A stretch of 43,543 bases of DNA from positions 1 through 43,543 of IMG/VR virus record IMGVR_UViG_3300034523_000200. One strand, written 5' to 3'. Positions 5,041-43,543 of the stretch are shown one piece after another (positions within the stretch are counted from its first letter, which is position 1; each line of letters begins with the position of its first letter). Origin of the DNA: a virus. The position numbers and the translations under genes are program-made. The notes under the pieces were generated by a model that was not told the origin of the DNA, ran no database searches, and saw only the letters and a list, made by a program, of their open reading frames with translations.

Positions 5041-5835
5041 ATGTCCTCACCCATCATCCCTTGGATGGGCGGCAAACGCCGCCTGGCCGACCGCCTTATT
5101 CCCCTCTTCCCACCCCATGAATGTTACGTCGAAGTCTTTGCCGGTGGCGGCGCACTCTACTTCATGCGACCCCAGGCCGCGCCCACCGAAGTCCTCAATG
5201 ACATCAATGGCGACTTGGTCACCCTGTATCGTGTCGTGCAAAACCACCTCGAAGAGTTCGTACGCCAATTCAAATGGGCGCTCAGCTCGCGCCAGATTTT
5301 TGAATGGCAGAAGATGACCCGACCAGAAACCCTCACCGATATCCAGCGCGCCGCCCGATTCTTCTACCTGCAGCACCACGCTTTCGCTGGAAAGGTCACG
5401 GGTCAGACGTTCGGTACCGCCACCACCGGCCCGGCCACCAACCTGCTGCGGATCGAGGAGAATCTATCGGCCGCTTGGCAGCGCCTGGCTGGCACCTACG
5501 TTGAAAACCTCCCCTGGCTTGAATGCGCCGAACGCTACGACCGTGCCCACACCTTTCACTACATGGACCCGCCTTACTGGCAGACCGCTGGTTATGGCGT
5601 GGACTTCCCGTTCGAGAACTATGAGCGAATGGCCGACTTCATGCGACGGTGCAAAGGCAAGGTGATGGTCAGCATCAACGACCATCCGGATATTCGGCGG
5701 GTGTTCGAAGGCTTTCATTTCGAGACGTTGGATATCCGATACACCACTACAAACCAGCGCCAAGGCAAAGCCGAGGTCAGCGGGGAGCTGGTGATCATGA
5801 ACTGGGAACCAGCGGAATTGGGAGGGTTGTTTTAG
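5041..5835 (+). CDS. D12-class N6-adenine DNA methyltransferase (Dam-like)
   Basis: The protein has 264 aa from ATG 5041. The earlier GTG at 4918 would add a non-homologous tail. It shows 'PIIPWMGGKRRLADRL' (SAM-binding entry), 'YVEVFAGGGALYF' (motif I) and the catalytic DPPY in 'HYMDPPYWQTAGYG' (motif IV), in the order of the D12/Dam class. It should methylate the N6 of adenine in a short target, probably to protect phage DNA or to influence regulation. The specificity cannot be read from the sequence. It lies alone between the spanins and attP and ends upstream of the hairpin at 5905. Confidence 0.9.
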   Translation: MSSPIIPWMGGKRRLADRLIPLFPPHECYVEVFAGGGALYFMRPQAAPTEVLNDINGDLVTLYRVVQNHLEEFVRQFKWALSSRQIFEWQKMTRPETLTDIQRAARFFYLQHHAFAGKVTGQTFGTATTGPATNLLRIEENLSAAWQRLAGTYVENLPWLECAERYDRAHTFHYMDPPYWQTAGYGVDFPFENYERMADFMRRCKGKVMVSINDHPDIRRVFEGFHFETLDIRYTTTNQRQGKAEVSGELVIMNWEPAELGGLF

Positions 5836-7438: not shown

Positions 7439-7533
7439 GCTGTTTCCCCTCTGACCATGATGCCAGTGATATCGTTGAATGCACTGACGTTGGGTGGGCC
7501 TTCACAGAACGGGCAAGATTTTAGAGTCGTCAT
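7435..7533 (-). CDS. truncated Lar-like CPFC mini-protein (32 aa)
   Basis: This 32-aa frame starts 'MTTLKSCPFCEGPPNVSAF', which looks like the N-terminus of Lar-family restriction-alleviation proteins. That family normally has a second CxxC about 20 residues later, which is missing here. The start overlaps the RT stop and its own stop overlaps the next start (both ATGA), so translation appears coupled. It is either a remnant kept for coupling or a real micro-protein. Confidence 0.45.
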   Translation of the reverse strand: MTTLKSCPFCEGPPNVSAFNDITGIMVRGETA

Positions 7534-8666
7534 GCTCCCCGCCTTTTATATGTCTTGGTGAGTCTCGCATTGACTGTCTGGCCGCGCATCAGTACGGCCT
7601 TTGCCAGCTTGCGTCGATCCGTATGGCTATGAGTTGCTTGGGTGAGTAGCCCGAAATAACTGTTAGCTGTTTCGGTCAGTTCGGCGGCCGGCGCTGTCGC
7701 AACTCGCTTAAGCGCATGCTCGACTGTGCGACGGCGGGTGGTGCGATGCCATGGTTTGATCACCTGGCCAACAAAGTCGACACCGCGACTGATAGGTTGC
7801 TGGATGGTCTTGCTGGGGTTGAGGCGGACACCCAGCCGCTCGGGAAGGAAGTCTGTCAATTCATTCAGCCAGGTCCTGAGTTGCTCTGGCGATTGATGCA
7901 GCAGCACGAAGTCATCGACGTAGCGGATGTAATGCTGGACCTGCATGCGGTGTTTGACGTGCTGGTCTAGCGTGTCCAGGTACAGGTTGGCAAAGAACTG
8001 GCTGCTCAGGTTACCGATGGGCAGGCCCAGGTAACTCGGTTGGCTGGCAAGTCGCTTGTGCTGCGGCACTCGATTGACCAGGCGCGGCGTGCTGTGTAAC
8101 CGATAGTTTTCTCGGGGGTCGTGCATCAGTATCTGCTGGGCCAATGCCAGCCATTGGGGTTCCTTGATGCGGGTGGCCAGCTGCTGCTCGAGCACGCGCT
8201 TATCTATGCTCACAAAGAAGTTGGCGAGGTCGCACTTGAGGTAGTGCGCCGGCTGGCTCCAGTTCTGAGTGATGCTGCGGATCTTGGCCTCCAAGCGCTG
8301 AGCAGCGTACAGCGTGCCGCGCCCAGTGATACAGGCGCAGCTGTCGGCAATGAAACTGCGCTCAATGCGCGGACCAATATGGTTATAGAGCAGGTGGTGC
8401 ACGATGCGGTCACGAAAGTCTGCTGCCCAGACCTCTCTTGGTTTCGGGTGAGTTACCACGAAACAGATCGATGGGCCTGGCTGGTAACTGCGGTCGATCA
8501 GTTCGGTATGCAGTTGCATAAGGTTGCGCTCCAGGTTGAGCTCGAAGGCCAGGGCGTTACGACTGCTGCGTTTATTGCGACGGCAGTCGAAGTAGGCCTG
8601 CACCAAAGCCTCAAAAGAAAAATCAGCATGGCCTGCTGCTACAGCGTGTGTATCTGCGGACGGCAC
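7530..8666 (-). CDS. DGR-1 reverse transcriptase
   Basis: The protein has about 378 aa if started at GTG 8666. Motifs in order are 'FRDRIVHHLL', GRGT (~115), 'LKCDLANFFVSID' with a catalytic Asp (~146), 'GLPIGNLSSQFFANLYLD' and 'HYIRYVDDFVLL' with the catalytic YVDD (~249-252). The SQ in the IGxxxSQ motif marks DGR-type RTs. It copies the TR transcript with errors at adenines for transfer into variable repeats. The start is uncertain: GTG 8666 lies inside the 3' end of the TR, and the open frame continues back to 8951. GTG 8666 gives an N-terminus comparable in length to the second RT (38159-39208). Confidence 0.92.
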   Translation of the reverse strand: MPSADTHAVAAGHADFSFEALVQAYFDCRRNKRSSRNALAFELNLERNLMQLHTELIDRSYQPGPSICFVVTHPKPREVWAADFRDRIVHHLLYNHIGPRIERSFIADSCACITGRGTLYAAQRLEAKIRSITQNWSQPAHYLKCDLANFFVSIDKRVLEQQLATRIKEPQWLALAQQILMHDPRENYRLHSTPRLVNRVPQHKRLASQPSYLGLPIGNLSSQFFANLYLDTLDQHVKHRMQVQHYIRYVDDFVLLHQSPEQLRTWLNELTDFLPERLGVRLNPSKTIQQPISRGVDFVGQVIKPWHRTTRRRTVEHALKRVATAPAAELTETANSYFGLLTQATHSHTDRRKLAKAVLMRGQTVNARLTKTYKRRGA

Positions 8667-8753
8667 GAGCCCGACGGGCGTTGTCCTTGTGGTCGTTGTT
8701 CTGGTTGCCATCATCGAAGTTCTGGATCCACGCGTTGTTCGGGCTGTACTGCG
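8653..8753 (-). repeat. DGR-1 template repeat (TR1)
   Basis: This 101-bp sequence aligns without gaps to VR1 (9359-9459) and VR2 (10028-10128). Read on the - strand in the VR frame it is rich in AAC, GAT and GAC codons. VR2 differs at 14 positions, all TR adenines. VR1 differs at 12, of which 11 are adenines. The 3' ~27 bases (CGTCGGGCTCGTGCCGTCC region) are identical in all three and form the initiation-of-mutagenic-homing segment. It lies between avd and the RT, the normal place for a TR. Confidence 0.95.
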
Positions 8754-8925
8754 CCAAGTCGTGCTATCTACGTCAGCCTGCCGAAGGTGAAAACCGATCA
8801 GCAGGTCAACTGCGCAGGGCCTGCACGGCAGAATGCCGACGGTTCCCTTGATGCGCATGGCGGTGGCCGGGAAGGCCAGCGGCACGACCAGATTCAAAAT
8901 CGCGCAGGCGAGAGCGCCTTGACGC
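8754..8925. other. avd-TR1 spacer, no convincing gene
   Basis: This 172-bp stretch lies between the avd stop and TR1. The RT reading frame is open through it, giving a composition unlike an RT, and nothing recognisable is encoded. It is probably the 5' part of the TR-containing RNA, which in characterised DGRs extends beyond the repeat. Confidence 0.4.
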
Positions 8926-9288
8926 TCAGGCGGCAGGCGACGTTGCGGCATGTTTTTTCCACCCTGTTGCTTGTCGACCCAGCGGGTCAGTGATCTCGAT
9001 AGCCCTGGCGTACTGCTTGGTGCTGATCAAGTGCTTGTCCACGGCGAGGCGTAACATCAGCTCGATAATCTGGACGTGCTCCAACAACTTCTGGATATGC
9101 ACGATCCGGTCGGACCCGGTGGCTACGTTTGCCCTGAAGATCAGTGTCACCACTTCGAAACACTCCATCAGCACTTTCTCGCCAAGCGTCCGCTTGAAGT
9201 CGCGCGGCATGTTCTTGGCAAGGTCAGCGGCTAGGCTGGCGAGATCGCTGGCCAGTTTGTAGATCGGTAATTGGTGGTGTAAGGCCAT
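8926..9288 (-). CDS. avd: DGR-1 accessory variability determinant (Avd)
   Basis: The protein has 120 aa from ATG 9288. The sequence 'LPIYKLASDLASLAADLAKNMPRDFKRTLGEKV', then 'ECFEVVTLIFRANVA', and 'ISTKQYARAIEITDPLGRQATGWKK' near the C-terminus match the four-helix-bundle Avd family. Avd forms a basic pentamer that binds the RT and the TR RNA and is required for mutagenic cDNA synthesis in characterised DGRs. It lies between the variable gene and TR1 on the same strand, as in Bordetella phage BPP-1. It differs clearly from the second Avd at 37506-37862. Confidence 0.9.
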   Translation of the reverse strand: MALHHQLPIYKLASDLASLAADLAKNMPRDFKRTLGEKVLMECFEVVTLIFRANVATGSDRIVHIQKLLEHVQIIELMLRLAVDKHLISTKQYARAIEITDPLGRQATGWKKHAATSPAA

Positions 9289-9305
9289 GCTGAAAAACTC
9301 GCGAA

Positions 9306-9324
9306 GCACGGGCTGCGCCCGCGC
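9306..9324 (-). other. GC hairpin downstream of VR1
   Basis: GCACGGGC and GCCCGCGC (seven of eight paired) surround TGC on the + strand (loop GCA on the coding strand). The hairpin lies 34 nt beyond the VR1 3' boundary, just after the stop codon. An analogous hairpin with the same loop lies 35 nt beyond VR2, and none follows TR1. It corresponds in place to the DGR target-recognition hairpin known from BPP-1. Confidence 0.6.
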
Positions 9325-9334
9325 CCCTTAAGGG

Positions 9335-9949
9335 TTAAAGGGTTGAAGTGCTAACGACTCTGCGGACGGCACGAGCCCGACGGGCGAGGTCCTTGGGGAG
9401 GTGGTTCTGGTAGCCAGCAACGAAGTTCTGGATCCACGCGGTGCCCGGGCTGTACTGCGTGCTGCTCAGGTACCACGCTTCATCGAACAGTTCGGGTACC
9501 GATGCGTAGCACAGTGCCAGCTCGAAGCGGGCTGGCAGGTACCAGTCGGTGTGCCCCTTGACGTCGAGGTTCGCCGCCCAGTCAGCTGCCGGGTGATCGT
9601 TGTCAGACCCAGCAAGTGAGGCCGTGTTGAGCAGGCCATCCCGCGCATGTTTGGCGCCTGATTCATCTTTGCCATAAGACCCCCATACGGCATCGCTGGC
9701 TGCTCCGTCTTCATCGCGGGCAACGACGAGGTGGTAATCCAGTTGGCCGTCTTCGCCGCGCATCAGTCCGGCGTAAATCCCTCCTTCTCCGCCCCAGTAC
9801 GTGCCGATGGCTGGGGGAGCGATCACGCTAAAGACACCTGCTGTTGCGAATGTTGCCAGCGTGCCTGGAATGGGCGTTACGGTTTCGGGTGCGAAGAAGT
9901 TCAATGTGACGTTCAGGTTCTTGGCTTGAATTCGTGGTGCTTGCTTCAT
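9335..9949 (-). CDS. DGR-1 variable protein 1 (DUF1566/Lcl-like)
   Basis: The protein has 204 aa from ATG 9949 (GAGG upstream). After a ~50-residue N-terminus it shows 'VWGSYGKDESGAKHARDGLLNT', 'WAANLDVKGHTDWYLPAR' and 'EAWYLSSTQYSPGTAWIQNF', typical of the DUF1566/Lcl C-type-lectin-like domain used by DGRs as a scaffold. Residues ~164-197 are the variable repeat. There is no signal peptide and no tail-protein feature, and it is encoded in the early operon. Its binding partner is unknown. It is paralogous to the C-terminal domain of the next gene upstream (10010-11593). Confidence 0.85.
   Translation of the reverse strand: MKQAPRIQAKNLNVTLNFFAPETVTPIPGTLATFATAGVFSVIAPPAIGTYWGGEGGIYAGLMRGEDGQLDYHLVVARDEDGAASDAVWGSYGKDESGAKHARDGLLNTASLAGSDNDHPAADWAANLDVKGHTDWYLPARFELALCYASVPELFDEAWYLSSTQYSPGTAWIQNFVAGYQNHLPKDLARRARAVRRVVSTSTL
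9359..9459 (-). repeat. DGR-1 variable repeat VR1
   Basis: The 101 bp align gap-free to TR1. Eleven of 12 differences are at TR adenines (to G, C or T). The exception is a G-to-C in the codon GAC to CTC. The first variable codons AAC AAC became GGC ACC, identical to VR2. The terminal ~27 bp match TR1 exactly. Confidence 0.94.
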
Positions 9950-9975
9950 GGTCAGAGCCTCAAAAAATTGTGCGA

Positions 9976-9992
9976 ACCGCGCTGCGCGCGGT
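9976..9992 (-). other. GC hairpin downstream of VR2
   Basis: A perfect 7-bp stem, ACCGCGC / GCGCGGT, surrounds TGC (loop GCA on the coding strand). It lies 35 nt past the VR2 boundary, just after the stop codon of the DHH-variable fusion. It has the same loop and almost the same distance as the hairpin after VR1. Confidence 0.65.
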
Positions 9993-10009
9993 ATCAATGA
10001 CTGAAGTGA

Positions 10010-10621
10010 TTAAGGGGTAACCTTGAATCTGCGGACGGCACGAGCCCGACGGGCGTTGCCCTTGCGGTCGCCGTGCTGGCCGCCACCATCGAAGCCCTGG
10101 ATCCACGCGGTGCCCGGGCTGCACTGCGTACTGCTGAGGTACCAGCTGTCACTGAAGGCTTCTGCACCACCCTCTTGAAACTCGGGAGAGGTAGTCTGGC
10201 CTGGGCTTTGCTCGCTATACGGATATCCGGTTGGCAGGCTGCTGGGGTTGTCGCCGTCGCGCAACGATGCCCAGTTCTCTTGCGCGGTGGGCTTGAGGTT
10301 CCGGTAGCAGAGTTCCAGTTCATCGCGACTTGGCAGGTACCAGTCATGGTGGTCATTGATGACCAGGTCGAGTGCCCACTGAGCGATCTCGCTGCCGGCG
10401 CTTGCCATGGCCCGGGTGTTGGCCAGGCCGTCATTACAGCTGCGCGCCCCGGCAACGTCTTGGCCGTACTTGCCCCACGGCGCCTCGGGATTTTCGCCTT
10501 GGGCTTCCGGGGAGGCGATCAGCGCGAACTCCGTGCCGTCGATCTGGAAGCGACCAGCATAAAACCCACCGGCAAATGGGATGCCGAAGGCAGTCGGAAT
10601 ATTGTTCGTGGTAGTGGTCAT
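10010..10621 (-). CDS. possible internal-start product: DGR-1 variable protein 2
   Basis: Within the fusion frame, ATG 10621 is preceded by GAAGG at normal spacing and gives 203 aa, almost the same length as VP1 (204 aa). Conserved blocks shared with VP1 are 'GGFYAG', 'WGKYGQDVAGA', 'DGLANT', 'DWYLPSRDELELCY' and 'SWYLSSTQ'. This supports an originally separate gene that became in-frame with the DHH gene, or an alternative product made now. Only protein-level data can distinguish these. Confidence 0.5.
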   Translation of the reverse strand: MTTTTNNIPTAFGIPFAGGFYAGRFQIDGTEFALIASPEAQGENPEAPWGKYGQDVAGARSCNDGLANTRAMASAGSEIAQWALDLVINDHHDWYLPSRDELELCYRNLKPTAQENWASLRDGDNPSSLPTGYPYSEQSPGQTTSPEFQEGGAEAFSDSWYLSSTQCSPGTAWIQGFDGGGQHGDRKGNARRARAVRRFKVTP

Positions 10622-11593
10622 TTCGGTTACCTTCGGCGTGAGCGAGTTGGCAATGTGCTGGTAGTCCGCTGCTGGTGAAGCCAGGGAGTGGTCAAACGGA
10701 ACTCGGAAGCCCGCCGCATTTCGATGACCTCCGCCTCCGTATTGGCTCGCGATCTCCGAAACATCCATGCCTTCATCAGTGCTACGCAGGCTGAACACTC
10801 GACCAGTCGGGGTGTCCCAGTAGCACGCTGCGAAGGGTTCGCCCTGGGCCATAAGGTGGCCGGCGTCACTGGTCAGCGTGTACGGCAGGCTCGCGGCCGG
10901 CACGTCGTGACCACCGATCACCAAGCGGCGCTTGGTTACAGCGACCAACTCAGTGACATCCTTGTGATGTTTCCGCTCGATTGCCGCGCCGTCCAGCCGT
11001 AGGGCTTGAACGTCGGCGGCCATCAGCCCATCCCAGACTTCGAAGTCGTATGGATAGCTGAAGAGGTTGGCCTGGATCTCCCGGGTGCCATCCAGTTTGA
11101 ACAGCCATAAATCCCGATCCTCGATGTGGCGCAGGAGCTGGGGCGGATCTTGGTCGGGGAAGAAATGATCCCAAGCGAGCATCGCGCCACTACGGTACAT
11201 ATCAAAACAGCAGGCTATGGCTGGGCCGTTTTGCGAGTGTGCCATGGCGTGCGCCGTTTTCCAGCCGAGCAACCGGGATCCGTCATCCTGACGGGTGTCT
11301 TCTTCGATACCGGCGTGGAATGGCTCAAAACGGGCCAGGTCTTCGGCAGCGCTTTTATGGTGGTCCAGCACGATGATGCTGTTCGCCTTATTCGCGAGCG
11401 CCGCCAGAACGTCGTACTTGTAGCTGAAATCGACCAGGATCACGTCCTTGCCCGTGACGTCCGGCGGCTCTTGACCGTAAACACCAGGGACGAACTCGAC
11501 ATCTGCGCCAAGAGCCTTGCGGACAACCCAGGCAGCACCGAATCCGTCAGCGCAATTACCGTGATAAATACAGAGTTTCTTTGCGTCGTTCAT
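10010..11593 (-). CDS. DHH phosphoesterase fused to a DGR-variable domain
   Basis: The protein has 527 aa. Residues 1-~310 are a DHH/DHHA1 phosphoesterase: 'YHGNCADGFGAA' (10-21), 'VILVDFS' (51-57), DHH at 77-79 in 'VLDHHKSA', and GGGGHRNAAGF (286-296). This family hydrolyses phosphodiester bonds in short oligonucleotides or cyclic nucleotides. Residues ~325-527 are a DUF1566-like variable domain paralogous to the 204-aa VP1, with VR2 at ~489-522. No stop separates them. Met325 (ATG, base 10621) has GAAGG eight bases upstream and would give a free 203-aa variable protein. The gene may thus yield a fusion, a separate protein or both. It follows an overlapping Cys-rich mini-gene. Confidence 0.88.
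   Translation of the reverse strand: MNDAKKLCIYHGNCADGFGAAWVVRKALGADVEFVPGVYGQEPPDVTGKDVILVDFSYKYDVLAALANKANSIIVLDHHKSAAEDLARFEPFHAGIEEDTRQDDGSRLLGWKTAHAMAHSQNGPAIACCFDMYRSGAMLAWDHFFPDQDPPQLLRHIEDRDLWLFKLDGTREIQANLFSYPYDFEVWDGLMAADVQALRLDGAAIERKHHKDVTELVAVTKRRLVIGGHDVPAASLPYTLTSDAGHLMAQGEPFAACYWDTPTGRVFSLRSTDEGMDVSEIASQYGGGGHRNAAGFRVPFDHSLASPAADYQHIANSLTPKVTEMTTTTNNIPTAFGIPFAGGFYAGRFQIDGTEFALIASPEAQGENPEAPWGKYGQDVAGARSCNDGLANTRAMASAGSEIAQWALDLVINDHHDWYLPSRDELELCYRNLKPTAQENWASLRDGDNPSSLPTGYPYSEQSPGQTTSPEFQEGGAEAFSDSWYLSSTQCSPGTAWIQGFDGGGQHGDRKGNARRARAVRRFKVTP
10028..10128 (-). repeat. DGR-1 variable repeat VR2
   Basis: The 101 bp align gap-free to TR1. All 14 differences are at TR adenines: TAC to TGC, AAC to GGC four times, AAC to ACC, AAC to CAC, GAT to GGT, CAC to CGC and GAC to GGC. 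The 3' ~27 bp are identical to TR1. This is the signature of adenine-specific mutagenic homing. Confidence 0.96.
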
Positions 11594-32515: not shown

Positions 32516-33623
32516 TGCAGATCTGCTGCCTTCCAATAGCACGCCCCTGGAGCGGGCACTGGCCGAAGCTGGATCACCTCAGGGCATTGATCCCGACGTG
32601 ATCCGCACGCTGTGGAATGCGGACCTGTGTCCGCCGGAGTTTCTGCCGCAGCTGGCCTGGTCGCTGTCGGTGGACTTCTGGGAGCTGGCCGCCACGGAGG
32701 AGCAGCGCCGCGAGCTGATTCGCGGGGCCATTCAATGGCACCGCAAGCGCGGCACGCCCTGGGCGATCAAGCAAGCCTTGGCCGCCTTTGGCTATCCCGT
32801 GCTGGAGTTGGTCGAGCAGTCGACCTATTACGCGCAATGGGTCGCCTCCGGCGGCCATGTGCTTGACGGGGTCTGGTCGCTAGACGGATCGGTAACACTG
32901 AGCCCGCCGGATACAGGGCTTAACGGGCAAATCGTCCGACGCAGCGCCCTGAACCACTGGGCGCAGTACGCCATTCGACTGAACGTGGCCGACAGCCTGT
33001 GGTCGCGCGAGCATCAACGCAAGATCCGCGCGGTGGCCGAGGCGTTCGCGCCGGAGCGCAGCGAGCTGGTGTCGCTGATCGTCGGCATGGCGATGCGCTT
33101 TGACTCGCGCATCACCCTCAAGGCGCTGGCCGCTCGGGTCCGCGTCAAGTTCGTCAGCTGCAAGCGCTTTCAGCCTGCCGCTCGCCGAACGCTCGACGGC
33201 TGCTGGCGGCTTGCTGGCGACGAGGTGCCGCTGCCGCTCGACGGCGGATGGCGACTGAGCGGCCGCCCGCTGGATGGCCGAACGCTGACTGGGCTGGCAC
33301 TGGATAACGGGAACATTACGTTTCGCCAAAAGATGCGCGTGCGCTTGCGCATGACGCTGGGCGGCGCTCGCCAAGAGTCGCCACTCACCCTGGGCAATCA
33401 ATGGCGCGTACTCGACGGGCGCTGGGCGCTGGACGAGATGACGTTGCGCGGCTGGCCTCTGGAGGAAGGGGTGGGCCTTGCTGACAGCCAGCTGGATCGC
33501 ACCGCCCTGCAGCGTCTCGACGGCAGCTGGCTGTTAGGCGCCGCGCTGGGCGCTCCCGGGCTTTGGTTCAACGGCCTGGCCCGCTTCAAACATAAAGGCA
33601 TCACCACTCAGGAATCGATATGA
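32508..33623 (+). CDS. I: tail protein gpI-like with LDG-x-W repeats
   Basis: The protein has 371 aa from ATG 32508, much longer than P2 gpI (~180 aa). The N-terminal half is gpI: 'LPSNSTPLERALAEAG', 'LWNADLCPPEFLPQLAWSLSVDFW' and 'RKRGTPWAIKQALAAFGYP'. The C-terminal half has at least five spaced copies of an LDGxW(R/S/A/L)L motif (HVLDGVWSL, RTLDGCWRL, LPLDGGWRL, RVLDGRWAL, QRLDGSWLL), suggesting a repeated beta module. GpI links the wedge to the tail fibre. Similar repeats occur in some tail-fibre connectors. Confidence 0.85.
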   Translation: MSSADLLPSNSTPLERALAEAGSPQGIDPDVIRTLWNADLCPPEFLPQLAWSLSVDFWELAATEEQRRELIRGAIQWHRKRGTPWAIKQALAAFGYPVLELVEQSTYYAQWVASGGHVLDGVWSLDGSVTLSPPDTGLNGQIVRRSALNHWAQYAIRLNVADSLWSREHQRKIRAVAEAFAPERSELVSLIVGMAMRFDSRITLKALAARVRVKFVSCKRFQPAARRTLDGCWRLAGDEVPLPLDGGWRLSGRPLDGRTLTGLALDNGNITFRQKMRVRLRMTLGGARQESPLTLGNQWRVLDGRWALDEMTLRGWPLEEGVGLADSQLDRTALQRLDGSWLLGAALGAPGLWFNGLARFKHKGITTQESI

Positions 33624-33985
33624 GCAACCCCAACGCAACGCCGACGACCCATGCCTATCGAAGCGCCGTCGCCCTCAGCGCCGCGACCGGCGCCGCCATT
33701 TCCCCGATTGCCTTCATGGCGTTTGGCACCAGCGCCCAGGCGTTTTCGGCGGCGGATGACACGGCTCTGTATGGCGAGCTGGTACGGATACCGGTGACGG
33801 CCATTGCGACCGGCCCCGAGGTGAAGGTGATCGGCGTGCTGGCCGGCATTCAGGTCGGCAATAGCGTGGTGCGCGAGGTGGGGGTGTTCACGGCGGCAGG
33901 GGTGCTGGTCGGCCGCGCGGTACTGACACCCAAGGAGTTCGAGGAAAACAGCGAACTCGAAATTGAAATGGTCTTTGAATATTGA
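33620..33985 (+). CDS. tail-associated protein before the fibre, unknown
   Basis: The protein has 121 aa. 'ATPTTHAYRSAVALSAATGAAI' and 'AFMAFGTSAQAFSAADDTALYGE' precede 'VVREVGVFTAAGVLVGRAVL' and 'ELEIEMVFEY'. This resembles the N-terminal attachment part of many phage fibres ('PIAFMAFGTGG...') encoded separately, so it may be the fibre adaptor. It overlaps gpI by four bases and precedes the fibre by 11. Confidence 0.55.
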   Translation: MSNPNATPTTHAYRSAVALSAATGAAISPIAFMAFGTSAQAFSAADDTALYGELVRIPVTAIATGPEVKVIGVLAGIQVGNSVVREVGVFTAAGVLVGRAVLTPKEFEENSELEIEMVFEY

Positions 33986-33996
33986 GGTAAGTCGCT

Positions 33997-36561
33997 ATGC
34001 CGTTAACTCCAAGTCAGAACCCGGTGTTTGCTCCCACCGTTCCGGCGCTGACCACCAATAGCGTGGCCCACCCGGACACCTGGAACCCGATTCACCAAGC
34101 CCTGCTCGATAACGACGTGGTATTGCAGGCCGCTATCGTCGAGGCCAACGGAACGCTGGGCGACCAGGTCGAGCAGCTGGAGAGCCGCCTGGAAGGGGTC
34201 GAGTCTTCCAGCGCCGTCTCGGTGCAGAAGGCGCAAGATCTGGATTGGCTGTACCGCAACAACGTGGTCAAGTTCGAAATGTTCGTGGCCGGGTACACGT
34301 TGATCGACCTGGACCCGATTGCGATTGTCCAGGGCGTCAATGGCGATGACTCCATCGACCTGGCGTCCACAGCCAAGCTGCGCCCTGGTGAGTTCTACGT
34401 GCTCAGCGATCCGACTGCGCTCGACGCGAACGGTGACCCAGCCCCGGCCTCGGCCCTGGTGCAGATTCAGACCGTGCTGTCTGGCGCCCGCGTTCGTCTG
34501 GCGGCCAACCTGTCCCGCGACTGGGGGCCTTCGGCTACCTTGCGCCGCTCCAGCATCAAGGTGCTGGGCGCTTCCCGCGCCGCCGCCGCGCCGGGCGACA
34601 TCTACCTGACGCGCTCGATCAATATTGGCACCGACACTGCAGGTGGTGCGGTCGTGATTCGCCGCTCGCTCAACTCGGGCATGGCCCGTCTGTATTACCG
34701 CGACGGCTACCAGCCGACGTGGAAAGAAACGGGTTGGTCGTTGCGCCGTACCGATGGCGATATCCCGACCGGCTACGCCGATTACGAATACATTCTGCCG
34801 ATGCGCGGTGACGGCTGGCTGCGCCTGGACATATCGGGTGAAGCGATGAGCATTGCGCACCTGGTTGCGCTCGGCACGCCCACCGGCCTAGGCGGCTTTA
34901 TCAACCCGGACTTGCGCCCAGTAACGCCGCTGATCAGCACACCCGCCGCCGCTGCTGCCGGGGTGATGGAGCGCCCAACGCTGGCCTTGGTTGGCTACAG
35001 CTCGCCGTCCGGCAACACGCAGGCGGCCGTGCAATTTCAGTTGTCGACGAGCGCTGGCTTCGCCGCCATCCTGCACGACTCCGGCGTGCTGGGCTCGGGG
35101 CTGTCGTATGCCCTGCCTGCCGCCGTGCTGGTCGCGGGTACAACCTACTACTGGCGCGCTCGCGTCCAGGACGTGGCCGGCTTGTGGTCGGATTACTCAG
35201 CAGTGTCGAGCTTCGCCACGGCCGCCTCGTTTGTGTACGTCGCCGCGCCGAGCATCACCGGGCCGGCCGCAAACGCCACGGACGTGCCCGAGCAGCCGAC
35301 GCTGACCAGTTCGGCCTTTGTCGTTTCGGGCGGCGCGGATACGCACGCGGCCAGCCAGTGGCGGATTCGTCAGGCCGCAGGTACTTACGCCGCCCCTGTA
35401 TGGGACAGCGGCACCGATGCGGTGAACAAGCTCACGGCAGTGGTGCCTGCGGGCAAGTTGCTGCCGGGCCAGCTGAGCTATTACCTGCAAGTGCGCCATC
35501 AAGGCACCGCCAAGGGCTGGTCGGAGTGGTCGACCGAAAGCAAGATCACCACCAAGGCCGCTTTCGCTAACGTGATCGGTATCGCCATGCTCGCCACGGG
35601 TGGCGGCGGGGGCACCTGGGCGCGCGTGGACGAAAACGGCGCAACCAAGGTCACGGACGCCTCGTTTTTCAGCTCGCACGCCACCTACGGCGCGATTCAG
35701 GACCAGCTGGTCGACGGCCAGAACATGGTCAGAGTCCCAGCCTTTTACGTGAAGCGCGGCACCATCGCCTCGGGGGCCAACACTGGCAAGAAGGCGGTAT
35801 GGATTTCCGACCAGCCAGCGGCAGGGTTCACCTTGCACCCAGCGTTCAAGAATGCGGGCGCGGACCTAGCGCAGTTCTGGGTCGGCAAGTATCAGGGCAC
35901 GACTGACGGTGCGAAGCTGGGCTCCAAGCCTGGCCTGATGCCGCTGGCCAGTATCGATTTCCCGACCATGCAAGCCCGCGCCAGTGCGCGCAACACGGCA
36001 GGCGTCAGCGGTTTCGCGCTGTGGTCGATTTACCAGCTGTCGGCGATTCAGACGCTGGCGATGATCGAAATGGGCGGCGCGGATTCGCAAGCCCTGATCG
36101 GCCAGGGCAACGTCAGCACGAGCGCCGTTCAGGCGGTGGACAGTGTCACGGTCGCGCAAGCCACCTGGCGCGGCATCGTCGGGCTGTGGGGTAACGTCTA
36201 TCAAATGGTTGACGGCCTGCAGACCGATGCGTCGAGCAAGTTCAAGGTCTGGGACCGCAACGGTAACAAGTCGTACCTGACCACCACGCGAACCGCTCCA
36301 GCCGCTAACGCCTACCCGGTGACCATGGCCGAGGACGCTGGCGTCGATTACGACCTGCGCGACATCTTTGCACCTGCCACGGTTGATGCGACGGCCAGCA
36401 ATGGCAGCTATGGCGACTACTTCTATCAGGGCGCCAATGCCGTGGCGTATCACGGTGGCTACTACGGCTCCGGCTCGGTCGCCGGGCTGTTCTTTCTGTA
36501 CGTCTACATCGCCGCGTCGCACGCGATCACGATCGTTGGCGGCCGCCTCGCGAAGGTGTAA
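33997..36561 (+). CDS. tail fibre, DGR-2 variable protein
   Basis: The protein has 854 aa. The N-terminal ~70 residues include a coiled coil (LGDQVEQLESRLEGVESSSA). A middle region (~300-525) has two fibronectin-III-like repeats ('TYYWRARVQDVAGLWSDYS' and 'LSYYLQVRHQGTAKGWSEWS'). The C-terminal ~300 residues are a C-type-lectin/FGE-like domain ('VRVPAFYVK', 'QFWVGKYQ', 'WRGIVGLWGNVYQMVDG'). The last ~35 residues are the variable repeat (~819-852). It probably binds the host receptor, and DGR-2 diversifies the binding surface. Avd, TR2 and RT2 follow. Confidence 0.93.
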   Translation: MPLTPSQNPVFAPTVPALTTNSVAHPDTWNPIHQALLDNDVVLQAAIVEANGTLGDQVEQLESRLEGVESSSAVSVQKAQDLDWLYRNNVVKFEMFVAGYTLIDLDPIAIVQGVNGDDSIDLASTAKLRPGEFYVLSDPTALDANGDPAPASALVQIQTVLSGARVRLAANLSRDWGPSATLRRSSIKVLGASRAAAAPGDIYLTRSINIGTDTAGGAVVIRRSLNSGMARLYYRDGYQPTWKETGWSLRRTDGDIPTGYADYEYILPMRGDGWLRLDISGEAMSIAHLVALGTPTGLGGFINPDLRPVTPLISTPAAAAAGVMERPTLALVGYSSPSGNTQAAVQFQLSTSAGFAAILHDSGVLGSGLSYALPAAVLVAGTTYYWRARVQDVAGLWSDYSAVSSFATAASFVYVAAPSITGPAANATDVPEQPTLTSSAFVVSGGADTHAASQWRIRQAAGTYAAPVWDSGTDAVNKLTAVVPAGKLLPGQLSYYLQVRHQGTAKGWSEWSTESKITTKAAFANVIGIAMLATGGGGGTWARVDENGATKVTDASFFSSHATYGAIQDQLVDGQNMVRVPAFYVKRGTIASGANTGKKAVWISDQPAAGFTLHPAFKNAGADLAQFWVGKYQGTTDGAKLGSKPGLMPLASIDFPTMQARASARNTAGVSGFALWSIYQLSAIQTLAMIEMGGADSQALIGQGNVSTSAVQAVDSVTVAQATWRGIVGLWGNVYQMVDGLQTDASSKFKVWDRNGNKSYLTTTRTAPAANAYPVTMAEDAGVDYDLRDIFAPATVDATASNGSYGDYFYQGANAVAYHGGYYGSGSVAGLFFLYVYIAASHAITIVGGRLAKV
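36452..36551 (+). repeat. DGR-2 variable repeat (VR)
   Basis: The 100 bp align gap-free with TR2 (37886-37985). There are 12 differences, all at TR adenines (nine A-to-T, two A-to-C and one A-to-G), changing codons such as AAC to TAC, TCC, GTC, ATC or CAC. The 3' end (GGCGGCCGCCTCGC) is identical in both copies. Similarity upstream of 36452 has non-adenine differences and marks the 5' boundary. Confidence 0.97.
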
Positions 36562-36595
36562 TGGGTCCTGTGACCTGAGTCATGTCTTTGGGCTA

Positions 36596-36610
36596 GCCCG
36601 CCGAGCGGGC
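36596..36610 (+). other. GC hairpin downstream of the fibre VR
   Basis: A perfect 6-bp stem, GCCCGC / GCGGGC, has loop CGA and lies 44 nt after the VR. It may be the DGR target-recognition hairpin, or another of the hairpin-before-gene elements, since AGGAGA and a TTG start follow. Confidence 0.5.
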
Positions 36611-36635
36611 GCCCTTTGCTCTTAGGAGAGCGCTT

Positions 36636-37205
36636 TTGAACATTGAAAATGGAACCCTGACCGTTAATGGTCAGAGCGTAGTGCTGCCCGTGATTCAGGC
36701 TGACGCGAAGGTTCGCGTCTGGTCGGTGCCGCTGGAGTATCGCGAAAACGGCTTGTTTGTTGCGGTGATCCTGTCCGGCCAGCCGGACGAGATCCCGGCG
36801 TGCTCACTGGCGGATACCGAGTACCTGGGCGAACTGGAATACCCCGCCGCCGAGGCGCACAAGCTGGAGGCCGCCAAGGCCGCCAAGCTGGCGCAGATCA
36901 ATGCAGCCTGTGAGCTGGCATTGGCGGCCCTGACCAGCACCTACCCGCCCGGCGAGTTGCAGAGCTGGTCGCAGCAGGTGCAGGAAGCGGCGGCGTTTCT
37001 GCTCGACCCTCCCGGCCCCACGCTGCTGCTGGCGGCCATCGCCGAGGTGCGCGGCCTGACGGTTGCAGATCTGGCAGAACGGGTCCAGGCCAAGGCCGTG
37101 GGCTACGCCACGTATTCGGGCGCGATCATCGGCAAGCGTCAGGCCGCCGAGGATCTGCTTGGCAAGGCCGAAACGCTGGAAGAAGTGGGGGCCGTCGTAT
37201 GGTGA
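36636..37205 (+). CDS. tail fibre assembly-like protein (TTG start)
   Basis: The protein has 189 aa from TTG 36636, supported by AGGAGA six bases upstream; no ATG alternative keeps the N-terminus. 'DGQPDEIPACSLADTEYLG'-like polar parts precede a long helix (EAAKAAKLAQINAACELALA), typical of the Lys/Ala-rich helix in tail fibre assembly proteins and DUF4376-like proteins. It may chaperone the diversified fibre. It lies between the fibre and the DGR-2 accessory genes. Confidence 0.6.
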   Translation: MNIENGTLTVNGQSVVLPVIQADAKVRVWSVPLEYRENGLFVAVILSGQPDEIPACSLADTEYLGELEYPAAEAHKLEAAKAAKLAQINAACELALAALTSTYPPGELQSWSQQVQEAAAFLLDPPGPTLLLAAIAEVRGLTVADLAERVQAKAVGYATYSGAIIGKRQAAEDLLGKAETLEEVGAVVW

Positions 37206-37513
37206 AGCGTATTGCGCGGAGCCTGGCGCTGCTGCTGATGTGCGCGCTGGCGGCTGTGCTGAGCCTGGTGTGGATGTTCTGCGCCGTGCTGGCGAACAGC
37301 GCTCGCGGCCAGCGTCTGGCAGTGTCCTTCGACCAGCTGGCCAACACCGCGCTGGGCGGCGACGAGGACGAAACGATCAGTTCGCGCGCCGGCAAGGCGG
37401 CCCGCGAGGGCAAGTGGTGGGCGTGCCGCCTGTGTCGCTGGCTGGATCGATTCGACCCCAACCACTGCGAAAACAACATCGAGCAGGATGAAGGGAAGCG
37501 GGTCAGTGAGTGA
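37199..37513 (+). CDS. membrane protein within the DGR-2 cassette
   Basis: The protein has 104 aa. A signal-anchor helix (ALLLMCALAAVLSLVWMFCAVLA) is followed by 'VSFDQLANTALGGDEDETISSRAGKAAREGKWWACRLCRWLDRF' and a charged tail. The 'DQL.N..LGG..DET.SSR' pattern is a small phage family of unknown function. It is between the fibre assembly gene and avd, overlapping both. No role in the DGR is evident. Confidence 0.6.
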   Translation: MVKRIARSLALLLMCALAAVLSLVWMFCAVLANSARGQRLAVSFDQLANTALGGDEDETISSRAGKAAREGKWWACRLCRWLDRFDPNHCENNIEQDEGKRVSE

Positions 37514-37862
37514 CGCGCACCTGACCCTGCTAACCAAGCTTGAGGACCTGGACAGCTACACGCACACGGTGCTGCACCAGTTCCCCAAGCTGGAACGGCA
37601 CTTGCTCTGCGCTGATTTGCGCAGCACCTGCAATCAGCTGTTGCGCTTGACAGTGGTGGCATGGAAGCGCCGCCAGAAGACAGCCGCGCTGTTTGATCTG
37701 GATGTGGAGATCGAAGTGCTGCGTCACCTGGTGCGCAAAGCGCACCGGCTGAGCTACATCAACACCCACCGCCTCGATGTCTGGATGAGGCATGTCAATG
37801 AAATAGGGCGAATAGTGGGCGCCTGGGTCAAGCACGAAGGCCCAGCCGCACCCCGCCAGTAA
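37506..37862 (+). CDS. avd: DGR-2 accessory variability determinant (Avd)
   Basis: The protein has 118 aa from GTG 37506; ATG 37488 is an alternative start adding six residues. The sequence is all-helical and basic: 'LTLLTKLEDLDSYTHTVLHQFPKLERHLLC', 'STCNQLLRLTVVAWKRRQKTAALFDLDVEIEVLRHLVRKAHRL'. This is the bAvd-like four-helix-bundle pattern, placed directly before the TR and RT as in BPP-1. It should bind RT2 and the TR2 RNA. Similarity to the other Avd (8926-9288) is low, so the two DGRs do not look like a recent duplication. Confidence 0.85.
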   Translation: MSDAHLTLLTKLEDLDSYTHTVLHQFPKLERHLLCADLRSTCNQLLRLTVVAWKRRQKTAALFDLDVEIEVLRHLVRKAHRLSYINTHRLDVWMRHVNEIGRIVGAWVKHEGPAAPRQ

Positions 37863-37885
37863 CGAACGTAGGGCAGGGGCTTATT

Positions 37886-37985
37886 ACGGTGGCAACTACG
37901 GCAACGGCTCGAACGCCGGGCTGTTCTATCTGAACGTCAACAACGCCGCGTCGAACGCGAACACGAACGTTGGCGGCCGCCTCGC
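37886..37985 (+). repeat. DGR-2 template repeat (TR2)
   Basis: This 100-bp template is rich in AAC codons when read in the VR frame (GGC AAC TAC GGC AAC GGC TCG is the first part). It has about 22 adenines, and the VR differs at 12 of them and nowhere else. It lies 23 bp after avd and 173 bp before RT2. The sequence between TR2 and RT2 contains no gene and is probably part of the TR RNA. Confidence 0.97.
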
Positions 37986-38158
37986 AAACGATTACCGCCA
38001 GAAGGCGTCGGGCTCACGGGCCCGCGTCCAGTGCGTTTCCTTTGGAGCCTCTGTCCAGACCATGCAGTCAAAGATTTACAGGGCGTCGCGGCTAGTAGCC
38101 TCGGCGAATGTGGCGCCGCCCGACCTAATTTCCGCTCTGAAGAGCTAAGGCTTATGTT

Positions 38159-39208
38159 GTGCCGATCACTACCAATGGCCTGTGGGGCCAGATAATCGAC
38201 TTCGACAACCTGTATCAGGCTTACCGAGAGGCACGGCGCGGCAAGCGCAACCGGTCTTCGGTGATGCGCTTTTCAGCCAACGTCGAAGAGAACCTGGTCA
38301 ACCTGCAAAACCACTTGATATGGAAAAGCTGGAAGCCCGGCAAGCCCCGCGAATTTGTGGTCAAGGAACCCAAGCTGCGCCTGATACAGGCCCCGCCCTT
38401 TGCGGATCGCGTGATCCATCACGCCCTGGTGCGGGTGGTCAATCCCCTGTTTGAGCGCAAGTTCATCAGCGACTCCTATGCCTGCCGCATTGGCATGGGC
38501 ACGCAAGCCGCTGTGGCCCGAGCGCAGCACTTCATGCAGGTGGCCAAGCGCAATCACGGCCCCGGGGTGTACGTGCTCAAGGCCGACATCAGCCGATTTT
38601 TTGCCAGCATCCGGCATCACGTTTTGTTGGGGGAGATCCAGCGCACCATTGCCGACAAGAACGTGTTGTGGCTGTGGCGTCAGATCATCAATGGCTATGG
38701 CAACGAAACCGGCATTGGCTTGCCGGTGGGGGCGCTGACCAGTCAGCTAGGGGCCAACATCCTGCTGAACCGCCTGGATCATGTCGCCAAGGACCGCATG
38801 GGCATCAAGCATTACGTGCGCTACATGGATGACTTTATCGCCGTACTGCCTGACAAGGAGTGCGCGGCAGCGGCCCTGGCCGAACTGTCGACCGAAGTCG
38901 CCGCGCTGAGCCTTGCGCTCAACCCGAAAACTGCCATCCACCCCTGGCAGCGCGGCCTGGACTTTTGCGGTTACCGGATCTGGCCCACCCACCTGCTGCC
39001 ACGCAAGCGCAACATCAAGCGCGCCCGCGCTTCGTTCCGGCAACTGATGACACGCTACCGACAAGGCCAGATAGACCCGCAGTATGTCCGGCAACGGGTC
39101 TGCAGCTTTCTGGCGTACACCAAGCACTGCAACGCCCGCCGCACCGTCGAGGGCGTGCTGGGGGATTTGAAGCTGGTCAGAGCCCCGGCGTTACCCGTAA
39201 CACCGTAA
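38159..39208 (+). CDS. DGR-2 reverse transcriptase
   Basis: The protein has 349 aa from GTG 38159 (TAAGG upstream). RT motifs in order are 'LIQAPPFADRVIHHAL', GMGT (~112), 'VYVLKADISRFFASI' with a catalytic Asp (~143), 'GLPVGALTSQLGANILLN' with the DGR-type SQ (~195), and 'HYVRYMDDFIAVL' with YMDD (~222-225). A C-terminal thumb with 'GLDFCGYRIWPTHLLPRKR' follows, typical of DGR RTs. It differs in the active site (YMDD rather than YVDD) and overall sequence from the DGR-1 RT. Confidence 0.95.
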   Translation: MPITTNGLWGQIIDFDNLYQAYREARRGKRNRSSVMRFSANVEENLVNLQNHLIWKSWKPGKPREFVVKEPKLRLIQAPPFADRVIHHALVRVVNPLFERKFISDSYACRIGMGTQAAVARAQHFMQVAKRNHGPGVYVLKADISRFFASIRHHVLLGEIQRTIADKNVLWLWRQIINGYGNETGIGLPVGALTSQLGANILLNRLDHVAKDRMGIKHYVRYMDDFIAVLPDKECAAAALAELSTEVAALSLALNPKTAIHPWQRGLDFCGYRIWPTHLLPRKRNIKRARASFRQLMTRYRQGQIDPQYVRQRVCSFLAYTKHCNARRTVEGVLGDLKLVRAPALPVTP

Positions 39209-41480: not shown

Positions 41481-43543
41481 ATGGCGAACAATTTAGCGCT
41501 TGGTCTGGTGATTGGCGGCACCGTGAGCTCTACGGTGGGGAGCGCCTTCAAGGACGTAGAGGGTCGCATCAAGCGCTTGGATGCTGTCGGGGCCAGGTCG
41601 CGGGTGCTGCAGCGAACCATTGGCGACACCATGCGCCTGCGTCAGGAATGGCAAAAAGCGCACGCCTCGGGAGCGGCAGGGGCTGATGGCCTGCGCCGCA
41701 AGCTGGAGGCCAATCTCGACGGCCTCAAGCGCCAAGGGGTTGAGGTTAGAAACCTCGGCAAGGCCTACCAGCAAATGGGCCGTCTCGCCCGTAGTGCTGA
41801 ACTCAAGTCCAAGGGACAAACCCAGTTGCAGCAAGGTGGTGCTGGGCTGCGCAGAGTCGGCACGGGCGTGGCCGTTGGCGCAGCAGCGTTGGCGTTGCCG
41901 ACCAAAGTCAGTGCGGACTACAACGCAATCATTCGTGACATCGCGATCAAGGCGGGCATTGCCAACAAGCCGCAAGAGGGCGAAGTCTCCAGAAAGATCA
42001 TCGAGACATCCCGCGACAGCGGCATGGCGCGTAACGAAGTAGCGGATCTGGTCAACGCCCTGGTGGGTGCGGGCATGGATCTGACCAAGGCGATGGAGTA
42101 CGCACCGGTCGCCGCCAAGTTCGTTGTCGGCCAGGGCGCGGACGGCGTCGACACTGCCAAAATGATCAACGCGCTGATGCAGAACGCGAAGATTACCGAC
42201 CCGGCGAAGATTCAGCAGGCGCTGGAGGCGGTCGCGTTCCAGGGCCAGGCGGGCAGCTTTGAAGCCAGTGACATGGCGAGGTGGTTCCCTGAACTGCTGG
42301 CCGGCATGGGCCGGCTGGGCATCGAGGGCAACGATGCAGCGACGCAGCTAGGGGCCATGCTGCAGGTGCAGATGAAGACGGCCGGCAGCAGCGATGCGGC
42401 CGCCAATAACCTCAAGAACTGGATGGAGAAAATCGGTTCAGGCGAAACGGTCAAGGCCTACAAGGCTGCGGGAATCGACTATCAGGCGTCGATGAATACC
42501 GGCCTGCTGAACGGCAAGTCCACACTGGAATCCAGTTTCGCCCTGGCGCAGAAGTACGTCGAAGCGACAGACCCGAAAAAGTCCCAGCTGATGGCCGAGT
42601 CCATGGCAAAGATCAGCCAGGAATCCGACCCGACCAAGGCCAAGGAAATGATGAGTTCCTTGGAGCAGGCGTTACGCACTGGGGATCTGTTCGCAGACAT
42701 GCAGGTTAAGGCCGCGCTTACGGCCTACATGCAAAATAAGGATCTTTACGAGCGACTGAAAAAGGACTCGGGTGGCGCCAAGGGCATCCTGGACAAAAAC
42801 CTGATCGAACGCCGCGACACGTCGTCACAGAAATGGAAGGAAGCCGGGCAAGGTACAGACGACGCCATGCGCAGCGTGGGGGATGCTCTGGCACCGCTCA
42901 CGGACCGTTTGGCCAGCGGTATCATCACCGTCACAAAAACTATCAGCGGGCTGGCCGAGGAGTCGCCCAAGGTGGTCGCGGGCGTAGTGGCTTTGGGCGG
43001 CGGCATTGCTGCAGCCGCCTCGCTGTTCTCCGGCTTCAAGATTATGAAAGGCCTACTGAACATCGGGCGCGGCGTTCTCGGCGGCGGCTCCGGCGGTGTT
43101 CAAAAGGTTGAAATCGTCAACCCGGGCGGCGCCGGGGATGAGGCGACCGGCACAGGCAAGCAAGGCAAGGCCTCCATTGCCGCCGCGCTGATCAAAACGG
43201 GCCTCGATGCGTACAAGAACAAGGACGGACCGCCAGCGGAAGGCGGGAGCGAGGCCCAAAAGGGCGGCTTTGACCTAGCCGATACCGGCCTCAAGCTGCT
43301 GGAAACATTCCAGGAGGCCAAGGGCGGGGAGTCCGGTGGCGGCGACAGTGACGGCCCGCAGCGGGTCTTCGTGGTCAATGCGGGCGAGATGGGCGGCGCT
43401 GCAGCAGGCCAGCCAGGCCAGGGTGGCCGTAGCAATCGGGCGGGTCGGCGCACGCGCAACGGCCCCGCCGGAGGTAGTCGGGCTGGACGTCGCCCACCCC
43501 GGCCACCCACACCACCCGTTCCGGTTCCGCGTCCGCCGCCTCG
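41481..43543 (+). CDS. tail tape measure protein, N-terminal part (continues at base 1)
   Basis: The frame starts at ATG 41481 and is open to the end of the window, continuing at base 1 after the 127-bp overlap; the whole protein has 935 aa. The N-terminus has 'RSRVLQRTIGDTMRLRQEWQ' and coiled-coil regions. The central part contains 'DYNAIIRDIAIKAGIANKP' and 'NALVGAGMDLTKAMEYAPVAAKF', the core of the phage tape-measure family (PhageMin_Tail). A hydrophobic segment (VVAGVVALGGGIAAAASLF) follows. The length corresponds to the tail length. Confidence 0.92.
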   Translation, partial: MANNLALGLVIGGTVSSTVGSAFKDVEGRIKRLDAVGARSRVLQRTIGDTMRLRQEWQKAHASGAAGADGLRRKLEANLDGLKRQGVEVRNLGKAYQQMGRLARSAELKSKGQTQLQQGGAGLRRVGTGVAVGAAALALPTKVSADYNAIIRDIAIKAGIANKPQEGEVSRKIIETSRDSGMARNEVADLVNALVGAGMDLTKAMEYAPVAAKFVVGQGADGVDTAKMINALMQNAKITDPAKIQQALEAVAFQGQAGSFEASDMARWFPELLAGMGRLGIEGNDAATQLGAMLQVQMKTAGSSDAAANNLKNWMEKIGSGETVKAYKAAGIDYQASMNTGLLNGKSTLESSFALAQKYVEATDPKKSQLMAESMAKISQESDPTKAKEMMSSLEQALRTGDLFADMQVKAALTAYMQNKDLYERLKKDSGGAKGILDKNLIERRDTSSQKWKEAGQGTDDAMRSVGDALAPLTDRLASGIITVTKTISGLAEESPKVVAGVVALGGGIAAAASLFSGFKIMKGLLNIGRGVLGGGSGGVQKVEIVNPGGAGDEATGTGKQGKASIAAALIKTGLDAYKNKDGPPAEGGSEAQKGGFDLADTGLKLLETFQEAKGGESGGGDSDGPQRVFVVNAGEMGGAAAGQPGQGGRSNRAGRRTRNGPAGGSRAGRRPPRPPTPPVPVPRPPP
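43417..43543. repeat. terminal direct repeat, copy 2 (assembly overlap)
   Basis: Identical to 1-127; see that entry. Removing one copy gives a circle of about 43,416 bp. Confidence 0.93.

Follow-up and report, generated by a model that had tools for sequence, protein, structure and literature searches.

The window analysed here, the whole of IMG/VR record IMGVR_UViG_3300034523_000200 (43,543 nucleotides), carries a tail fibre gene whose 3' end recurs further downstream in altered form. A sequence-only reading of the window had taken the differences between the two copies as direct evidence of past mutagenic homing by a DGR in the receptor-binding domain of the fibre. The question raised by this locus is whether the differences do record such homing, and what the neighbouring genes and the relatives of this phage say about it.

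The DGR cassette at the tail fibre gene

The following features were assigned in and behind the fibre gene.

33997..36561, + strand: target gene, tail fibre of 854 residues (open reading frame list; PHROG tail protein over residues 572-852, E = 4e-30)
Residues 335-409 of the fibre: Ig-like domain
35629..36558, + strand: C-terminal C-type-lectin-like domain containing the variable repeat, residues 545-854 (AlphaFold2 and Foldseek prediction)
36452..36554, + strand: variable repeat VR2, core of 103 nt, ending two codons before the stop codon (13 of 13 differences at template adenines)
36538..36551, + strand: GC-rich, IMH-like 3' end of the VR, 13 of 14 bases G or C, equal to TR positions 37972-37985
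36596..36610, + strand: hairpin GCCCGC-CGA-GCGGGC 3' of the VR, with an outer arm pairing 36590-36593 with 36611-36614
36636..37205, + strand: protein of 189 residues, no assigned function (PHROG 2618), in the position of a fibre assembly protein, the role being suggested by position
37199..37513, + strand: protein of 104 residues, no assigned function (PHROG 34710)
37488..37862, + strand: Avd accessory protein of 124 residues (Pfam bAvd PF22296, E = 4e-25; PHROG Avd, E = 3e-32)
37886..37988, + strand: template repeat TR2 (alignment to VR2)
38159..39208, + strand: DGR reverse transcriptase (RT) of 349 residues (RVT_1, PF00078, E = 9e-20; PHROG 1423, E = 2e-123)

The best PDB match of the RT is the reverse transcriptase 8ub7 (E = 1e-48), and the DGR motifs [IVL]GxxxSQ and YxDD are present as VGALTSQ at residue 190 and YMDD at residue 222. 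With an RT adjoining the TR, an Avd, a GC-rich IMH, TR/VR differences restricted to adenines, one-way transfer from TR to VR and a VR at the 3' end of a target predicted to have a C-type-lectin fold, the cassette is a complete, classic Avd-type phage DGR.

The order of target, Avd, TR and RT is that of the BPP-1 DGR (mtd, avd, TR, brt), and in both systems only adenines are changed. The two also share an AAC-rich template in which the first adenine of AAC most often becomes T, a GC-rich VR 3' end with a hairpin behind it, and a C-lectin target at the tail. Unlike the BPP-1 cassette, that of the window has two extra genes between target and Avd, and its target, which includes an Ig-like domain, does not detectably match any solved structure in sequence. 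The same cassette and TR/VR pattern are found in IMG/VR phages and Proteobacteria prophages, such as that of Pseudomonas antarctica (locus L083), with RTs up to 89% identical to the window RT.

Differences between TR2 and VR2

VR2 and TR2 align without gaps at an offset of 1434. Over positions 36452-36551 they differ at 12 sites, every one an adenine in TR2 (A>T nine times, A>C twice, A>G once); the exact alignment thus reproduces the count given in the sequence-only reading. TR2 has 22 adenines in this alignment and VR2 has 10, which also bears out the statement that more than half of the available adenines had been changed. The probability that 12 positions drawn at random from 100 would all be A is 6e-10. 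The repeat had been placed correctly to within three bases: its true end is at 36554, which adds one further A>G, so that 13 of 13 differences lie at adenines, with 25 adenines available. Not one of the 78 non-A sites of the 103-nt core differs between TR2 and VR2. Beyond the repeat, non-A changes appear (36443 G>T, 36447 T>G, 36451 T>C and 36555 C>G). As differences outside 36452-36554 are not A-restricted, the repeat boundaries are sharp.

The 3' segment GGCGGCCGCCTCGC had been singled out as unchanged. It is indeed identical in TR2 and VR2, and nearly so in close relatives. Since it contains no adenine, it is not mutable by A-mutagenic homing, and its identity adds no evidence.

The adenine rule in related phages

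Homologous cassettes were collected from viral contigs and genomes, and the 103-nt core was placed in each by similarity to the window TR at non-A positions, for TR and VR alike; changes at adenines therefore had no influence on the choice of repeats. In 30 non-duplicate homologous TR/VR pairs, which come from mutually related phages and do not count as independent events, 326 of 346 differences fall at template adenines, with 42.5% of adenines changed versus 0.86% of non-A sites. A deduplicated set of 33, with near-identical VRs removed and genome loci added, gave 360 of 380. Comparing the VRs of related phages with the TR adenines had been proposed as a check, and it reveals no equal change at non-A sites. 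About 0.9% of the non-A positions differ between TR and VR in the relatives, which ordinary drift after the latest homing could account for.

The relatives also show the direction of copying. At non-A positions where a relative's TR departs from that of the window, the relative's own VR mirrors the difference in 263 of 264 cases. When phages with identical TRs are compared, their VRs show differences at 7-17 adenine sites and at two other sites at most. Differences restricted to adenines, together with VRs that follow their own TR, match the prediction of one-way A-mutagenic copying from TR to VR. One relative, L042, has a single TR (at 5728) and two VRs on either side of the RT (L042:4897 and L042:11796), with 20 and 11 differences from the TR, nearly all at A.

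Substitution spectrum

Changed template adenines in the relatives' pairs became G in 138 cases, T in 104 and C in 83. At the first A of AAC, T was most frequent (73, against 60 G and 33 C), and the RT of BPP-1 has been measured to convert the first adenine of AAC most often to T (PMC12875486). The template partly predicts the nine A>T changes seen in the window. VR2 is nevertheless rich in T versus the pooled spectrum (9 of 13, p = 0.007), as one among the 30 VRs examined.

With positions held fixed, spectra differ among VRs beyond expectation (p = 0.002-0.003), and a difference is also seen among six phages with identical TRs (p = 0.01). Pairs of changes to the same base are in excess, most strongly at adjacent adenines (ratio 1.46). 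We considered an event-wide signature left by each homing event. In AAC and AAT codons with both adenines changed, Leu, Ser (TC), Gly and Phe occur more often than expected, and Cys, Pro, Arg and Val less often. These codons were counted in 270 VRs associated with both RT types (L003-L262); the set was chosen by a score that penalises non-A changes, and its fraction of changes at A is therefore not used as evidence. Given this codon bias, amino acid selection accounts for the adjacent-adenine effect at least, and we claim no new mechanism.

The fibre tip

The C-terminal 310 residues of the fibre were modelled with AlphaFold2 from 28 aligned sequences (mean pLDDT 92.7, pTM 0.92). A phmmer search of the fibre against PDB sequences found nothing. 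The best structural match of the model, found by Foldseek, is the DGR variable protein TaqVP of Thermus aquaticus (5vf4; E = 1e-14, probability 1.0, TM 0.60), despite only 18% sequence identity; unlike TaqVP, the window domain forms a phage tail fibre tip. PvdO follows, and weaker matches include Mtd variants of BPP-1 (E = 2e-3 to 8e-3) and Treponema TvpA (2y3c, E = 6e-3); viral structural matches are mostly tail collar fibre proteins. With TaqVP as the best match and Mtd and TvpA weaker but consistent, the VR is predicted to sit in a C-type-lectin-type domain at the fibre tip. That this is a receptor-binding domain, as the sequence-only reading put it, agrees with the predicted fold and the C-terminal position in an 854-residue tail protein, from which we infer the binding itself.

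Of the 12 mutable codons of TR2, nine are AAC and the others TAC, TAT and ACG. A stop codon cannot arise from any of them by an A>N change, and about 2e12 proteins can be reached. Between the window and L003, the VR has 15 nonsynonymous changes and one synonymous change, versus 16 and 67 in the preceding 750 nt; fibre dN/dS values against L004 and L083 were left out because of indels.

The hairpin behind the variable repeat

The hairpin of the window lies 41 nt after the VR. Nearly all close relatives have it, 38-44 nt after the VR, and compensatory changes in the stem keep the pairing; pairs were counted on ungapped, loop-centred sequences, as MAFFT alignments of the short hairpins shifted the register. 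In BPP-1, a hairpin behind the VR is required for homing, and the hairpins of BPP-1 and other phage DGRs have GRNA tetraloops and lie 4-34 nt after the VR (PMC3240598). The close set differs from these both in its greater distance and in its loop, which is always a CGA or CAA triloop. In the distant relatives L030, L039 and L044 the loop is GAGA or GATA, so that the CRA triloop looks like a lineage variant. We also considered a transcription terminator, which is unlikely because a T run behind the hairpin is absent in most relatives.

Origin of the variable repeat

We take the cassette to be the complete Avd-type DGR of a temperate contractile-tailed phage, with A-mutagenic homing to the fibre VR (probability about 0.96). 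By analogy with BPP-1, TR2 would be transcribed, and a complex of RT and Avd would reverse-transcribe the TR RNA, making errors opposite its adenines; the cDNA so formed would take the place of the VR in the fibre gene. Such homing would be one-way, with the GC-rich 3' segment and the hairpin beyond the VR as its guides. Up to 12 codons of the C-type-lectin domain would be varied, and the bacterial surface structure that is bound would most likely change with them.

Fibre tips often evolve fast, and a plain duplication of the tip, followed by divergence under selection and involving no reverse transcription, could also yield two unequal copies. Such divergence would have had to strike a single template base every time, here and in the relatives, and an RT and an Avd flank the template; the A-only pattern in the relatives refutes this explanation, to which we give next to no credence. 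That adenine is the sole base changed would suit a deaminase editing A in DNA or RNA in place of error-prone reverse transcription. Deamination of adenine gives A>G only. The dominance of A>T in the window (9 of 12) and the presence of all three substitutions in the relatives refute deaminase editing, which is less credible still than duplication.

The cassette might also be a fossil, having homed in the past and no longer working in the window phage. The window is a single consensus sequence, as this explanation would allow; the RT is open and retains its motifs, its dN/dS, calculated with three viral relatives and one relative from a genome, is 0.05-0.16, and TR2 and VR2 show no drift at non-A sites. 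We therefore regard a fossil as improbable, and the A-mutagenic DGR would presumably still be active. What one consensus and its relatives speak to is homing in the past rather than current activity. Past homing, as proposed earlier, is supported by the A-only pattern in the window and the relatives, the intact RT and Avd, the VRs that follow their own TRs and the hairpin; to call the evidence direct was slightly too strong for one consensus sequence and its relatives.

A second DGR in the same phage

The window contains a complete second DGR, DGR-1, with these parts.

7530-11593, - strand: DGR-1
About 7530-8624, - strand: DGR-1 RT, 35% identical to the DGR-2 RT of the fibre cassette
About 8649-8769, - strand: template TR1
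8926-9309, - strand: Avd
9355-9476 and 10024-10145, - strand: VRs, in two targets

One of the targets is fused to a DHH-phosphoesterase-like domain. Each VR has 15 differences from TR1, 13 and 15 of which are at template adenines; in the VR at 10024-10145, 12 of the 15 changes are A>G. The similarity between TR1 and TR2 is no greater than that of shuffled sequences, which makes cross-homing between the two unlikely.

In the 27 viral records tested, no RT was closely related to that of DGR-1 (best, about 44% identity), and an RT search of 48 long viral records that contain a DGR-1-type RT found no second DGR RT. Two RTs in tandem occur in three of 27 viral records with the DGR-2 type; tandem pairs were seen in the relatives L025, L026, L029 and L089-L092. 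In G019 and G034 (loci L025 and L089), a sequence similar to the TR of the second RT lies on the opposite strand at a distance of 56-62 kb and may be a remote VR. A single DGR serving two targets has been reported in phages (PMC10743442, PMC8008677); in a limited literature search, two DGRs within one phage were not clearly stated.

The phage and the fibre-DGR block

The genes of the window include those for integrase, terminase, portal, capsid and baseplate proteins, and the gene following the DGR-2 RT encodes the tail sheath protein. Positions 1-127 and 43417-43543 are identical, and with such 127-base end repeats the record probably represents a complete genome assembled as a circle; most likely, it is that of a temperate contractile-tailed phage. 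The host is of the Pseudomonas type, and the nearest named relative by RT is the P. antarctica genome mentioned above (89% identity). A nucleotide-level search of annotated phage records with the window gave no match. In blastn comparisons, similarity to two relatives' records, G002 and G028, is confined to about 32738-39182, and that to G005 is slightly longer (31.3-39.2 kb). This limitation of nucleotide similarity to about the fibre-DGR block in three records suggests that the block may move between phages as a unit.

The fibre cassette is a DGR of a well-known kind, with the adenine rule confirmed on dozens of related phages. Its interest lies in the many natural variants that make this rule testable, in the hairpin loop variant and in the second DGR. 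Identical or near-identical templates paired with different fibre tips amount to a natural test of adenine-specific homing, and from this set of phages one can derive the rules by which a DGR lineage mutates its targets in nature. One phage here has two unrelated DGRs, and the fibre with its DGR is the part common to otherwise dissimilar phages. Tentatively, and at slightly less than even odds, two separate, non-exchangeable DGRs may run at once, one on the fibre tip and the other on two C-lectin-like targets, of which the DHH-fused one would probably be non-virion. In that case the adhesin of the phage and a second recognition protein would be varied independently of each other, and otherwise dissimilar phages would share the fibre DGR as an exchangeable module for receptor binding.
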